DNA from: Pseudobdellovibrionaceae bacterium
GTDB lineage: Bacteria > Bdellovibrionota > Bdellovibrionia > Bdellovibrionales > Bdellovibrionaceae
Reading direction: 5' to 3'
DNA: 64,000 nt
NCBI GenBank assembly: GCA_030158485.1
Contig: JAOASS010000004.1
Coordinates: 1-64,000 of the forward strand
Shown here: positions 1 to 3,913 of the stretch, piece by piece
Layout of the letters: each line of letters begins with the position of its first letter
Position numbering within the stretch: position 1 is the first letter of the stretch
Program-made: the position numbers and the translations under genes
The notes under the pieces: model-generated
What the model was told of the DNA's origin: nothing
The model's database searches: none
What the model saw: only the letters and a program-made list of their open reading frames with translations

Positions 1-240
1 AGCAAATCTTGAAAACGAATATACGATAACTTGTGAGATCTTTCCTAGCCTAGCTTGATCTAACATACTATCTAGCCCAGGCCTTGATGACCTTGCCCCT
101 GAAATTCCGAAATCTTGATAAATTTCGAAGTTCTGAATGTCCTTTTGTTCACAGTAGATTTTCAATGCACTTAGCTGCGCATCTAGACCTTTTGTCTGTA
201 GTTCCGTTGATGTACGTAAATACAATGCAACTGTCTTCAT
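1..240 (-). CDS. Serine recombinase (resolvase/invertase family), N-terminal part, cut by window edge
   Basis: Reading the minus strand from an ATG at 240 gives 80 uninterrupted codons to the window edge. The product has the resolvase catalytic N-terminus: ALYLRTST with the nucleophilic serine at residue 11, then the QDFGISGARSSRPGLD block (residues 42-57) and the VIVYSFSRFA strand (residues 71-80), which corresponds to the DRLGR region of the family. A good Shine-Dalgarno sequence (GAGGTG) sits just before the ATG. The rest of the catalytic domain and the DNA-binding C-terminus lie outside, so small resolvase and large serine integrase cannot be told apart. It is divergent from the regulator at 331. 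The plus-strand open frame covering it is a shadow. Confidence 0.88.
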   Translation of the reverse strand, partial: MKTVALYLRTSTELQTKGLDAQLSALKIYCEQKDIQNFEIYQDFGISGARSSRPGLDSMLDQARLGKISQVIVYSFSRFA

Positions 241-265
241 ACTCACCTCTATGCAAACATAATAA

Positions 266-300
266 CGCATTACGTATTACAAAGTAAACAACGTATTACG
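266..300. repeat. Repeated ACGTATTAC boxes, candidate operators
   Basis: The 90-base gap between the divergent recombinase and ribbon-helix-helix genes carries the box ACGTATTAC at 272-280 and again at 291-299. An imperfect copy (CGCATTACG, 266-274) differs from 292-300 by one base. The copies are 19-26 bases apart and overlap where the -35 region of the rightward gene would lie. Short direct repeats are typical operators of ribbon-helix-helix dimers, so autoregulation and control of the recombinase is a reasonable inference. Confidence 0.5.
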
Positions 301-317
301 TTTTTCTAAATTTGAGA

Positions 318-323
318 TATAAT
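318..323 (+). promoter_or_regulatory. -10 box TATAAT for the ribbon-helix-helix gene
   Basis: A perfect TATAAT ends 7 bases before the ATG at 331. Transcription would start at or next to the start codon, and no Shine-Dalgarno sequence is seen, so the mRNA would be leaderless. A -35 box is not obvious; the repeated boxes cover that area. Confidence 0.55.
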
Positions 324-330
324 ATTCAAT

Positions 331-513
331 ATGAAAGCATTGCCAAAAAAACCTAAGCTCAAGTATGTTAACGGCATTAGAGAAGTCCTTTCAATTAGAT
401 TGCCACTAGATCTAATAAAAAGACTCAAAGAAGAATCAAAAGGAAGTGGCTACTCTCAGACTGAAATTATCCAGCATTCATTAGATTTATATCTTCAGTC
501 ATTAGATAAGTAA
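331..513 (+). CDS. Ribbon-helix-helix (CopG/Arc-like) DNA-binding protein
   Basis: This 60-residue protein has a basic N-terminal arm (KALPKKPKLKY), then a beta strand VLSIRLP (about 19-25), helix DLIKRLKEESKGSG and helix QTEIIQHSLDLYLQSL. That is the ribbon-helix-helix fold used by CopG/Arc regulators and many antitoxins. No toxin gene is adjacent on the same strand: 514-684 has no convincing gene, and the next genes are convergent. It more likely regulates its own promoter and the divergent recombinase through the ACGTATTAC boxes. A role as a partition-type or excision regulator of the element is possible but not shown. Confidence 0.75.
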   Translation: MKALPKKPKLKYVNGIREVLSIRLPLDLIKRLKEESKGSGYSQTEIIQHSLDLYLQSLDK

Positions 514-684
514 TGCTGGCTCGGGTATGTGGAAAATCAATTTGCATTCCTACACTTAATACGCAGAAAAAAAATTTGCTTATTATTTATTTATTACACT
601 TTTTTAAATATCAAAACTGAATGTTTAGTTAAGCATCTCTCAATCTAAGATTTTAAGATCATTACTTAAATTGGGAAGTAATAT

Positions 685-1209
685 TTATTTTGATAATTCT
701 TTTTGAATTTCCGCTTTATCCAATGGCTTTTTCAGCAATGGCATAATAATTCGCGGTAAATCCATTTGGTTAAACATGGAGTCGACATGACTTCTGATAT
801 ACGGATATGCATGGGGTAACGCATTTCCTTCTGTAAATCTGTTGAGAATTGCGTCAGTTGGCTTGGCATCATGTTTTAGTACGTATCTAACTACAAACTT
901 GCAACTACCCCCGAAAGCAACCCCTTCAGGAATCTGCTTAAATTGCGGACTGTCATTTTTAAAAATTCCATGAACCTCTGTTCCAACGAAACAAAATAAC
1001 TGTCTTACTTTTTTATCTGTGAGTGTCGGCTCAAGATTCCAGCCAAAGTTGTACTTAAACGTTACATTTAGTACGTCTAGAGATATTCTTTCAGGAGGCA
1101 ATGCAATTGAAAATTCTGACTCTACCATTTGAATCAATGCAATCTCTGTATCCTTAAGGAAATCTATAAACTCTTTGTTACTGTCTATGTCTACCATGGG
1201 CTCCCGCAT
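685..1209 (-). CDS. SecB-like chaperone of a toxin-antitoxin-chaperone operon
   Basis: The 174-residue product resembles the export chaperone SecB. Beta-strand-rich blocks (about 46-112) are followed by the signature NALPHAYPYIRSHVDSM and a LPRIIMPLL tail (about 129-159), which match the SecB segment LFPYARE...FPQLNLAP. It is the last gene of an operon with an MqsA-like antitoxin and an MqsR-like toxin, overlapping the antitoxin by about 30 bases. In known toxin-antitoxin-chaperone systems a solitary SecB-like protein folds and protects an aggregation-prone antitoxin, so that is the inferred role here rather than general export. The start could be the ATG at 1209 or the one at 1197, which has GGGAG only 3 bases upstream. 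Confidence 0.78.
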   Translation of the reverse strand: MREPMVDIDSNKEFIDFLKDTEIALIQMVESEFSIALPPERISLDVLNVTFKYNFGWNLEPTLTDKKVRQLFCFVGTEVHGIFKNDSPQFKQIPEGVAFGGSCKFVVRYVLKHDAKPTDAILNRFTEGNALPHAYPYIRSHVDSMFNQMDLPRIIMPLLKKPLDKAEIQKELSK

Positions 1210-1813
1210 ATCCGTTGTTTAAATTAGTAAAGTGCACAGGCACTTCCTCATCACCCTCGGGATGAGGACTTATAGGATGTGAATGAACGACTGCTAGTTT
1301 GTGCACAAGATCTCTGATTTCATTCATTTCTGGCTTTACACTGAAGAAAATTTTAACTTCTGAGTGACCCGAAACACTCCATGGAGAACCGTAACCCTTG
1401 CAAAATCCATTCAACTTTATGCCAGTTAATTTTGTTATTAGCTCGGGGTGCTCCACATAACTCAAAAGTAAATTCATTGTAGTCGAACTTAATATCTTAC
1501 TTCCCGATTTAACCATTGAAACATACTCAGGGGTAATACCCAACGCTTCACCAATCTGCTCCTGATTCAAACCAAGACTCTTAATCAGAAACGTTATTGC
1601 TTGCTCTGCTTTGATTTTCAAAGAAGCTTCTATATTTTTATCTAACCTGAGAAAATCCTTTGTACTTAAAATTTGATTCTGACAATTTTGACAAACAAGT
1701 GCATTCTGATCACATAATAGCTCAACCTGAGAATAGCTTCTCCACGGATGCATACTACCTTTGATGTTTTGAAGTTTTAAATGGGTGCTGCCACATTCTC
1801 CACAACGCTTCAT
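1178..1813 (-). CDS. MqsA-like zinc-finger/HTH antitoxin with C-terminal extension
   Basis: The 211-residue protein has an MqsA/YgiT architecture. An N-terminal zinc site is formed by C4-x2-C7 and C41-x2-C44, followed by ILSTKDFLRLDKNIEA and an XRE-type helix-turn-helix (about residues 72-117, GLNQEQIGEALGITPEYVSMVKSG). E. coli MqsA is about 131 residues. Here about 80 extra residues follow, including SEVKIFFSVKPE and VHKLAVVHSHPISPHP. In toxin-antitoxin-chaperone systems such a tail is the chaperone-addiction region that makes the antitoxin depend on the SecB-like partner; that role is inferred. Its start overlaps the toxin stop by 4 bases (1810-1813), so translation is probably coupled. It should also be the operon's repressor. 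Confidence 0.8.
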   Translation of the reverse strand: MKRCGECGSTHLKLQNIKGSMHPWRSYSQVELLCDQNALVCQNCQNQILSTKDFLRLDKNIEASLKIKAEQAITFLIKSLGLNQEQIGEALGITPEYVSMVKSGSKILSSTTMNLLLSYVEHPELITKLTGIKLNGFCKGYGSPWSVSGHSEVKIFFSVKPEMNEIRDLVHKLAVVHSHPISPHPEGDEEVPVHFTNLNNGYAGAHGRHRQ

Positions 1814-2223
1814 ATCTTTACCCTGGCCTTCTTAATTGTCGTTCCATTCTCCAGACGCATATCAGAATTAGTTTCATGAAAAGAAATCTCATCTAAGCAA
1901 TCTGAACCATTCTCGATTATAAACTTTATGAACCACGCGATTCCATCTTTTCGGATTCCGTATTGATCAGTAATTAATTCTTTAAATCCCCACTGTCCCG
2001 CTTCTTGTCTATAGAAATCTGAATCAGTAAGCTGCATAATGCTATTCATAATATACTCATTTGCTTTTTCACTTGTTACTTTCATTCCTATAGATCTTAA
2101 AGTTTTAACTACTTCATGAGTTGACCTCGAAGGTGCCGAAAACCAAACCTTTTCAGATTCTGGATTTTCTAATGCCATTTTAGTGAATTTTTTAACCTCT
2201 ACTAGAGGGTACTTACATGGCAT
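1810..2223 (-). CDS. MqsR-like toxin (mRNA interferase family), divergent
   Basis: The 137-residue product shares the MqsR plan. A VKKFTKMAL helix near the N-terminus is followed by helix MNSIMQLTDSDFYRQ (compare LSESDFYKS in E. coli MqsR), then strand regions WGFKELITDQYGI and GIAWFIKFIIE (compare WQDVY and GQVYLKI), ending in a LDEISFHE strand. MqsR cuts mRNA at GCU-type sites without the ribosome. Here residues aligned with E. coli K56, Q68 and Y81 look substituted (R, T and F by my alignment), so its specificity or chemistry may differ. It is the first gene of the three-gene operon. A TAGGAG sequence about 11 bases before the ATG can serve as ribosome site. Confidence 0.7.
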   Translation of the reverse strand: MPCKYPLVEVKKFTKMALENPESEKVWFSAPSRSTHEVVKTLRSIGMKVTSEKANEYIMNSIMQLTDSDFYRQEAGQWGFKELITDQYGIRKDGIAWFIKFIIENGSDCLDEISFHETNSDMRLENGTTIKKARVKI

Positions 2224-2250
2224 TAATTAAATAACTCCTACCCGGCTACT

Positions 2251-2278
2251 CTTATATCTTAGTCATCGGAACTTGCAA
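2251..2278 (-). promoter_or_regulatory. Promoter of the toxin-antitoxin-chaperone operon
   Basis: On the minus strand a -35 box TTGCAA (2273-2278) and a -10 box TATAAG (2251-2256) are separated by 16 bases, placed about 25-30 bases upstream of the toxin start. This is a normal sigma70-like arrangement. Confidence 0.6.
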
Positions 2279-2286
2279 GAACATAC

Positions 2287-2336
2287 TTAAACTCAGTTTA
2301 ACTTCCTTAAATTAGTTTATAATATTAAGTACTTAA
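2287..2336. promoter_or_regulatory. Two inverted repeats upstream of the operon, candidate antitoxin operators
   Basis: TTAAAC-tca-GTTTAA (2287-2301) is a perfect 6-3-6 inverted repeat and TTAAGTACTTAA (2325-2336) a perfect 12-base palindrome. Both lie just upstream of the -35 box. MqsA-type antitoxins bind short palindromes through their helix-turn-helix, so these are plausible operators, though AT-rich palindromes also arise by chance. Confidence 0.4.
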
Positions 2337-2538
2337 ATTGCAACAAAAATGTGAATTTGGGCAAAGATCTCGTATTTTGATTTAATAACGATTACAAACA
2401 AATAGGATGTCTCATTTCTAAACAACCCACCCAATGACTAGTTCTATATTACTTCCGTAAGCTTAAATTCTTTGCCGTGCGATTCGTTCGGTATCACGGC
2501 TCTAGCTAATGCCCAATAGAAACTCAAGCTAGATAAAA
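2337..2538. other. Intergenic region with an inverted repeat, no gene seen
   Basis: The region between the toxin promoter and the end of the integrase gene holds no convincing coding sequence. It contains GCCGTG (2474-2479) paired with CACGGC (2495-2500) across a 15-base loop, and CTAGCT (2502-2507) paired with AGCTAG (2526-2531). These could be a weak transcription stop for the integrase or recombinase arm sites; neither is established. Confidence 0.35.
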
Positions 2539-3705
2539 CTATTTTATTGCAATCAACTTGGCTAATTGTGGAACTTCAGTAAAATTAATTTCTTCTTTGT
2601 CTTTGTAATGCTGCCAAGTAGTAGAAATGTCTTTATGGCCCAACCACATACTTATGTCTTCAAGCTTTTGGCCTTTTGATAGCATTAAATCAACGAATGC
2701 TTTCCTGCCACCATAAAGAGTAATTCCATTGCCTACATACTTGCGAACTGTTTTATGCAGAGGTCTCTTAAACGATTTAGCTTGTATTATATCAAGGCAA
2801 TTTTTTTGTTCAGGAAAAATAATTGGAATTGCTTTCCATCTTTTTTCCTCGGCAATATTTTGTAACTTGGATTGATATATATGCAACACATTAACTTTTT
2901 TCTTAGCGTTAACCTCAATTCGAAAGCGTTTAGGTTGATTTAATAATTCAACTTCTTCAGGTCTTAATCCAAACCAAATAGTCAGCAATAACCAATTAAA
3001 TTGTTCAGGAATTAGCTTATCTTTAGCGTTGAATAAGGCAGCTGGCGTTAAAGGTAGCGATTCAGTTCGGACACCTAATTCAGTGTTGACTCCAGACTTG
3101 GTTAATTGAGCGTCAGCGATAGCAGACTTCTCCCGACCTCTAGGCAATGGGACCTCGTCATAGAAATTTCCACTAATTCTAGAGGCAAACTTCCCCCAGC
3201 GATTTAAAAATGAAACAATCCTAGCCGCATAGCTTGGACTAATTTTTTCTTTAATAAAATATTTGTATATTCGTTTGGATGCTTGTTTATATTCAATGGG
3301 TAGTATTCTAAGTTCATTGCACATTTTTTGAATAAAATTAAAGTGAGAATTCAGTTTTTCAAGATGCTGTTCAGATCCAAAGTTTTCTTCTTCCAGCAAT
3401 TCTTGAAACTTATTAATTCTATCTTGTGGAAAAAGAATTTCATCTAGAGTTTTTAGTGAAGTAACCCTCTTAGCTGCAACTCTGATTTTATCTTTAAGTA
3501 ATGACCGCTCTTTATTTATTTGAGTGCAAAGTTTTTTTGCATCAGTGACAGACATTTCAGGTTTAAAACCTAAGTCCCTTGCAGCTTTTGAATCAACTCG
3601 CTCTTGATGACGAACACCATTTTCATAGAATTGATACCACAGAAACCAACCCGTGGTTCTCACTCTGATATAGTAATTTCCTCTAGGGATATTATTGTCT
3701 TTCAC
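2539..3705 (-). CDS. Tyrosine recombinase / integrase
   Basis: The 388-residue protein has an N-terminal Arm-type region, a SAM-like core-binding domain (about 95-180) and a C-terminal catalytic domain. The visible catalytic residues are R248 (FGLRPEE), R334 (YGGRKAF), H357 (WLGHKDISTT) and nucleophile Y367 (WQHY). The first histidine of the usual HxxR motif is a tyrosine here (Y331). The length is normal for an integrase of a genomic island or prophage. It is read away from the tRNA gene at 3837-3913, whose 3' end is the likely attachment site. It should catalyse integration and excision of the element lying to its left. Confidence 0.88.
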   Translation of the reverse strand: MKDNNIPRGNYYIRVRTTGWFLWYQFYENGVRHQERVDSKAARDLGFKPEMSVTDAKKLCTQINKERSLLKDKIRVAAKRVTSLKTLDEILFPQDRINKFQELLEEENFGSEQHLEKLNSHFNFIQKMCNELRILPIEYKQASKRIYKYFIKEKISPSYAARIVSFLNRWGKFASRISGNFYDEVPLPRGREKSAIADAQLTKSGVNTELGVRTESLPLTPAALFNAKDKLIPEQFNWLLLTIWFGLRPEEVELLNQPKRFRIEVNAKKKVNVLHIYQSKLQNIAEEKRWKAIPIIFPEQKNCLDIIQAKSFKRPLHKTVRKYVGNGITLYGGRKAFVDLMLSKGQKLEDISMWLGHKDISTTWQHYKDKEEINFTEVPQLAKLIAIK

Positions 3706-3836: not shown

Positions 3837-3913
3837 TGGTAGTGAGAGGCGGACTTGAACCGCCGACCTATGGATTATGATTCCATTGCTCTAACCAGCT
3901 GAGCTACCCCACC
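3837..3913 (-). tRNA. tRNA with anticodon CAT (Met, or Ile2 if lysidine-modified)
   Basis: The 77-nucleotide sequence folds as a full cloverleaf. The acceptor stem GGTGGGG/TCTCACT contains three G-U pairs. The D stem is GCTC/GAGC, the anticodon stem ATGGA/TCCAT with loop ATCATAA (anticodon CAT), and the T stem GGCGG/CCGCC with loop TTCAAGT. The discriminator is A and CCA is encoded. It lacks the initiator-type acceptor mismatch, since G1-U72 can wobble, so it is elongator Met or the Ile(CAU) species. Its 3' end faces the integrase gene and is the presumed integration target. Confidence 0.93.

Follow-up and report, generated by a model that had tools for sequence, protein, structure and literature searches.

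A divergent MqsRA-type operon with a SecB-like chaperone gene, probably a chaperone-dependent toxin–antitoxin system, in a Pseudobdellovibrionaceae bacterium

The window analyzed here, a stretch of 64,000 nucleotides from a Pseudobdellovibrionaceae bacterium (contig JAOASS010000004.1), carries three overlapping minus-strand genes that very probably (a probability of roughly 0.8) constitute a divergent chaperone-dependent toxin–antitoxin–chaperone (TAC) operon of the MqsRA type. The MqsR-like toxin is encoded by a 137-residue open reading frame (ORF) at positions 1810–2223 and overlaps the ORF of the MqsA-like antitoxin (1178–1813; 211 residues) by four bases (ATGA), and the antitoxin ORF in turn overlaps that of the SecB-like chaperone (685–1209; 174 residues) by 32 bases, or by 20 bases if translation of the chaperone, then 170 residues long, begins at the second ATG (1197). 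The original prediction, made from the letters alone, had placed three real genes here with overlaps of four and about 30 bases, and described them as one operon of an MqsR-like toxin, an MqsA-like antitoxin with a tail, and a SecB-like protein that is not next to secretion genes. The minus-strand ORFs bear out this layout, no secretion genes adjoin the chaperone gene or lie nearby, and both the profiles and the relatives support the core of the description. The identical three-gene order is present in three further genomes of the phylum, and because it recurs although the proteins share only about 24–42% identity with those of the window, the order is more than chance. Toxin, antitoxin, and SecB-like genes are thus united in one operon, as is characteristic of SecB-linked TAC systems, by overlapping ORFs and by an order kept in four genomes.

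The antitoxin has the architecture of MqsA, namely, an N-terminal zinc domain containing two CxxC pairs, followed by a C-terminal helix–turn–helix (HTH; about residues 70–120), extended by a further C-terminal tail. It matched the MqsA-family model TIGR03830 at E = 4.8e-11, with a score of 42.6 bits that lies under the curated cut-off of 61.8, together with HTH_3 (E = 1.4e-5) and, weakly, PF15731 (E = 0.0013). A four-member antitoxin profile was aligned over residues 2–129 with E. coli MqsA (E = 2.7e-10), and the zinc-binding cysteines are invariant in the aligned antitoxins. Compared with E. coli MqsA (131 residues), the protein has exactly 80 additional residues, in line with the original estimate of about 80, and its last 80 or so residues are without counterpart there. 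The DNA of this tail (1178–1423, minus strand; about residues 131–211, beyond the MqsA homology) is favored by codon usage as coding in the antitoxin frame. It is the candidate chaperone-addiction region, through which, by analogy with known TAC systems, the tail would impose chaperone dependence on the antitoxin.

The distribution of such tails was compared across 369 genomes of one phylum, among which 20 MqsA-like loci were found in 18 genomes. A SecB-like gene is next in four loci (those of the window, G007, G247, and G089), 15 are two-gene loci, and one (G076) has a ParA-like ATPase as the third gene; the chaperone profile had no significant match in the remaining MqsA-like loci. Counted after the N-x-L that closes the HTH, the antitoxins run on for 95, 87, 79, and 67 residues where a SecB-like gene follows, for 60 in G076, and for 21–39 in the 15 two-gene loci, so that an extension of 67–95 residues goes with the chaperone and is absent from the two-component homologues, as expected for a chaperone-addiction region. 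The candidacy of the tail for this role had been proposed at the outset and is strengthened by the long tail being confined to loci that have a third gene (SecB-like in four, ATPase in one). The association of tail and third partner is significant when the relatedness of loci is ignored (Fisher p = 0.001), and since the four chaperone loci are related, it does not stand for four independent events; a tree of the N-terminal domains is compatible with the chaperone group having arisen once (80% of bootstrap trees). No shared sequence was found among the tails, and published ChADs are likewise not conserved in sequence (PMC5105189). In two genomes of the same genus as the window, both the antitoxin and the chaperone are absent.

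Two of these loci have peculiarities of their own. In G076 (C1, about 2912700; L024 1070–3390), the MqsRA-like pair is accompanied by an overlapping third gene that encodes a ParA-like ATPase (KGGVGRTS) and not a chaperone, and the operator, TTAAATTGAGTTTAA-N15-TCCGAT, is nearly the same as that of the TAC operons. Given this 60-residue tail, ATPase gene, and near-identical operator, antitoxin tails may have a wider role as modules that bind a partner. Beyond a stretch of seven G in G007, the coding score of the terminal part of the antitoxin tail (L003 1950–2117) moves to a different frame, a pattern that points to a frameshift or a sequencing error.

The two-gene relatives in the same phylum are presumably functional without a chaperone, and one member of the chaperone family, in G033, has an XRE-type HTH gene as its neighbor and no MqsRA pair. 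Both observations could be accommodated by a working two-component MqsRA-like pair in the window, with an antitoxin that folds alone and with the SecB-like gene and the tail serving some other purpose, e.g., that of a general chaperone of the element. Such an arrangement is improbable, since the tail and the chaperone were gained together and are absent together in 19 of the 20 loci, the translation of antitoxin and chaperone overlaps, and the best match of the chaperone profile in the PDB is a known TAC chaperone.

The operon is preceded by a predicted operator, consisting of the palindrome TTAAACTGAGTTTAA at 2287–2301 (minus strand; found once in the window, against an expectation of 0.07) and a TCCGA element at 2266–2270 (minus strand), 16 nucleotides after the palindrome. 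The latter lies between a likely −35 (TTGCAA, 2273–2278) and a likely −10 (TATAAG, 2251–2256), which were read by eye and are not listed by the consensus scan. All four TAC operons have the palindrome in their upstream region, as TTAAACT(C/G)AGTTTAA, followed by exactly 16 bases and then TCCGA. Searched as the palindrome, N15–17, and TCCGA, the motif has four matches across the 369 genomes, one in front of each TAC operon, and the reversed-pattern control has none; because it was derived from the same four operons, what is informative is that it occurs nowhere else and has been retained by operons whose proteins are now only about 24–42% identical. Variant palindromes are found closer to the start codon in most two-gene relatives. 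E. coli MqsA is known to autoregulate, with the operator AACCT-N3-AGGTT (PMC4894380), and by analogy, the conserved palindrome supports a putative autoregulation by the antitoxin, which would bind at the predicted operator.

The toxin is related to MqsR only remotely. It matched the Pfam family MqsR (PF15723) at E = 0.13 in a collinear stretch reaching the end of the profile, and its score of 13.1 bits vs. a cut-off of 26.2 falls short of strict MqsR membership by sequence; a similarly weak match was obtained for the G007 toxin and, of four two-gene relatives that were scanned, for three. A 14-member profile of the toxin family matched E. coli MqsR at E = 3e-5, indicating remote homology. When the family is aligned with E. 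coli MqsR, D69, Y71, K83, and F95 are invariant, the position of the catalytic K56 is variable (R in the window toxin), that of the catalytic Y81 is occupied by Y or F (F in the window toxin), and the K96 position is His in all 14 members, this being His116 in the window toxin. The window protein thus lacks the catalytic Lys56 and Tyr81 of MqsR toxins, both of which E. coli MqsR requires, and a conserved catalytic His is absent from the E. coli protein (PMC9636575). Because the catalytic residues differ, the toxin is described as MqsR-like and is not filed as a strict MqsR; the resemblance originally predicted holds at the level of remote homology, and the weak Pfam match and altered residues stop short of a clear MqsR. 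With K56 and Y81 replaced and an invariant His at the K96 position, set against the needs of E. coli MqsR, the alignment makes the toxin an MqsR-like member of a divergent subfamily, the chemistry of which may differ from that of MqsR. Single-sequence AlphaFold models (mean pLDDT of 37 for the toxin and 38 for the chaperone) were too poor to use. The weak MqsR match and the altered catalytic residues count against the TAC reading, as does the long tail of G076 with its different third gene.

The same substitutions could also mark a decayed or inactive module, in which toxin catalysis has been lost and the operon is a passenger of the element, as the K56A and Y81A variants of E. coli MqsR are inactive (PMC9636575). 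Decay is more doubtful still than an independent two-component pair, for the three ORFs are intact, the operator has been kept in genomes that are distant from one another, and Y and F alternate within a family that keeps the His throughout; this alternation together with the invariant His suggests a different but conserved active site.

For the third protein of the presumed TAC operon, no Pfam or NCBIfam match was obtained, and its predicted SecB-like nature is upheld as homology to the SecB-like chaperones of TAC systems. A four-member chaperone profile searched against all PDB sequences had Rv1957 of Mycobacterium tuberculosis (5mtw_C) as its best match (E = 1e-4), and the window protein matched the PADLOC model PD-T4-9_C, the CmdTAC chaperone, at E = 7.9e-5; only the chaperone resembles a PADLOC model, the toxin having no PADLOC match. 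Any three of the four chaperones recover the omitted member at E = 1e-18 to 1e-29. Since no canonical SecB (PF02556) was matched in the window's genome and E. coli SecB aligns with the chaperone over only 16 columns, the protein is grouped with TAC chaperones and not with export SecB. That it is a displaced housekeeping SecB for protein export, as the lack of any other SecB match in the genome might suggest, can be dismissed as highly improbable in view of that short alignment, of Rv1957 as the best PDB match, and of a sporadic family that occurs in 6 of the 369 genomes (the window's, G007, G247, G089, G160, and G033) and is missing from the two same-genus genomes. In G160, the chaperone gene lies at a contig end and the upstream genes are missing. 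The G033 locus (L050 3703–4409), possibly a different chaperone-linked module, comprises a short SecB-like gene that adjoins the XRE-type HTH gene and has an HEVVH-motif gene close by, with recombinase-like genes on either side.

The operon is probably located on an integrated element, as it occupies a segment at the contig end bounded by a serine recombinase gene that is cut by the contig end (1–270, minus strand; PF00239, E = 6.2e-18) and, on the other side, by the tyrosine integrase of the presumed element (2539–3705, minus strand; PF00589, E = 5.4e-4) beside a tRNA-Met(CAT) gene (3837–3913, minus strand; ARAGORN and Rfam), the likely integration site. A small ribbon-helix-helix (CopG-type) protein of 60 residues is encoded at 331–513 on the plus strand, between the serine recombinase and chaperone genes. 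The remainder of the element must be on another contig. Of the original placement inside an integrated element, the integrase beside the tRNA and the recombinase are in favor, whereas a second att site was not found, as a search with the 3′ end of the tRNA-Met gave only the known copy; neither of the two same-genus genomes gave a match to the neighboring chromosomal gene. The contrast in G+C content is weak, approximately 33–38% over positions 1–3500 vs. approximately 35–47% beyond. Among the relatives, an integrase and a TraD/TraG-like coupling protein are encoded close to the G089 operon, a recombinase is encoded close to that of G247, and the G007 operon (L041 5316–15853) lies amid a cluster of toxin–antitoxin-like genes with ParE-like, HipA, and Fic members (Pfam) and a Phd/VapC-like pair recognized by reading. 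The contexts of the four operons fit mobile elements or toxin–antitoxin islands. Pattern scans of a contig collection with the antitoxin alone and with the pair alignment found nothing, nor did scans of viral contigs with the chaperone, the antitoxin, and the operator. Plasmids gave no match for the window antitoxin and toxin or for the antitoxin and chaperone of a relative, and among phages, no more than two weak, partial matches turned up, both to the chaperone of a relative.

Several characterized systems are comparable. As the original prediction stated, TAC systems with SecB-like chaperones include MqsRA members, and the kind of system is already known, since the MqsRA-type TAC of Vibrio cholerae RC385 has been published (Bordes et al., 2016; PMC5105189). 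Like the window operon, it has an MqsR-family toxin, an MqsA-family antitoxin with a C-terminal extension, and a SecB-like chaperone; by the published description, its extension is 41 residues long (136–176) vs. about 80 in the window. The HigBA1-SecB TAC of M. tuberculosis (Rv1955–1957) shares the toxin–antitoxin–chaperone logic and provides the best PDB match of the chaperone, but its pair is HigB/HigA instead of MqsR/MqsA and its ChAD has approximately 42–45 residues (PMC5105189). In CmdTAC (PD-T4-9) of E. coli ECOR22, the SecB-like chaperone CmdC, which the window chaperone resembles, protects the antitoxin, whereas the toxin CmdT is an mRNA ADP-ribosyltransferase, unlike the MqsR-like toxin of the window, and CmdA is a different antitoxin (PMC11618068). 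The E. coli K-12 MqsRA has the same toxin-then-antitoxin order, a zinc/HTH antitoxin, and a palindromic operator; it differs in having no chaperone and no tail, in the operator sequence given above, and in the catalytic residues of its toxin. The new features here are the lineage and the operator specific to it, together with the long antitoxin tail and the altered active site of the toxin.

By analogy with these systems, the antitoxin would bind toxin and operator through its zinc domain and HTH and act as repressor of the operon, while the C-terminal tail would keep the antitoxin unfolded and prone to proteases until the SecB-like chaperone binds it, so that the toxin would be neutralized only while the chaperone is available. 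Toxin would be freed if the chaperone were drawn off, e.g., by an abundant unfolded phage structural protein, or if its synthesis stopped with the loss of the element, and the freed toxin, probably an mRNA-cleaving RelE-fold nuclease, would stop growth. We infer the toxicity, the binding of tail and chaperone, the proteolysis, and the trigger from such precedents. In CmdTAC, a phage capsid protein diverts the chaperone and frees the toxin (PMC11618068), and in HigBAC, a lambda tail protein does so (PMC11980606). The role of the window operon is probably the stabilization of a mobile element or the stopping of phages, as the original prediction of a stabilization or defense module proposed. A more speculative proposal, which we hold to be rather unlikely as a whole, is a separate chaperone-controlled MqsRA lineage spread by mobile elements through one phylum, with an invariant-His toxin chemistry replacing Lys/Tyr, transcription set by a two-part operator of its own (palindrome and TCCGA at a fixed distance), and a chaperone that senses infection by phages of these bacteria.

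The operon adds to the SecB-controlled toxin–antitoxin systems a divergent lineage that escapes standard profiles, and its close relatives, some with chaperone and tail and some lacking both, constitute a natural comparison for the evolution of chaperone addiction. Should its chaperone sense phage proteins, as that of CmdTAC does, the operon would be a candidate defense system in these bacteria.
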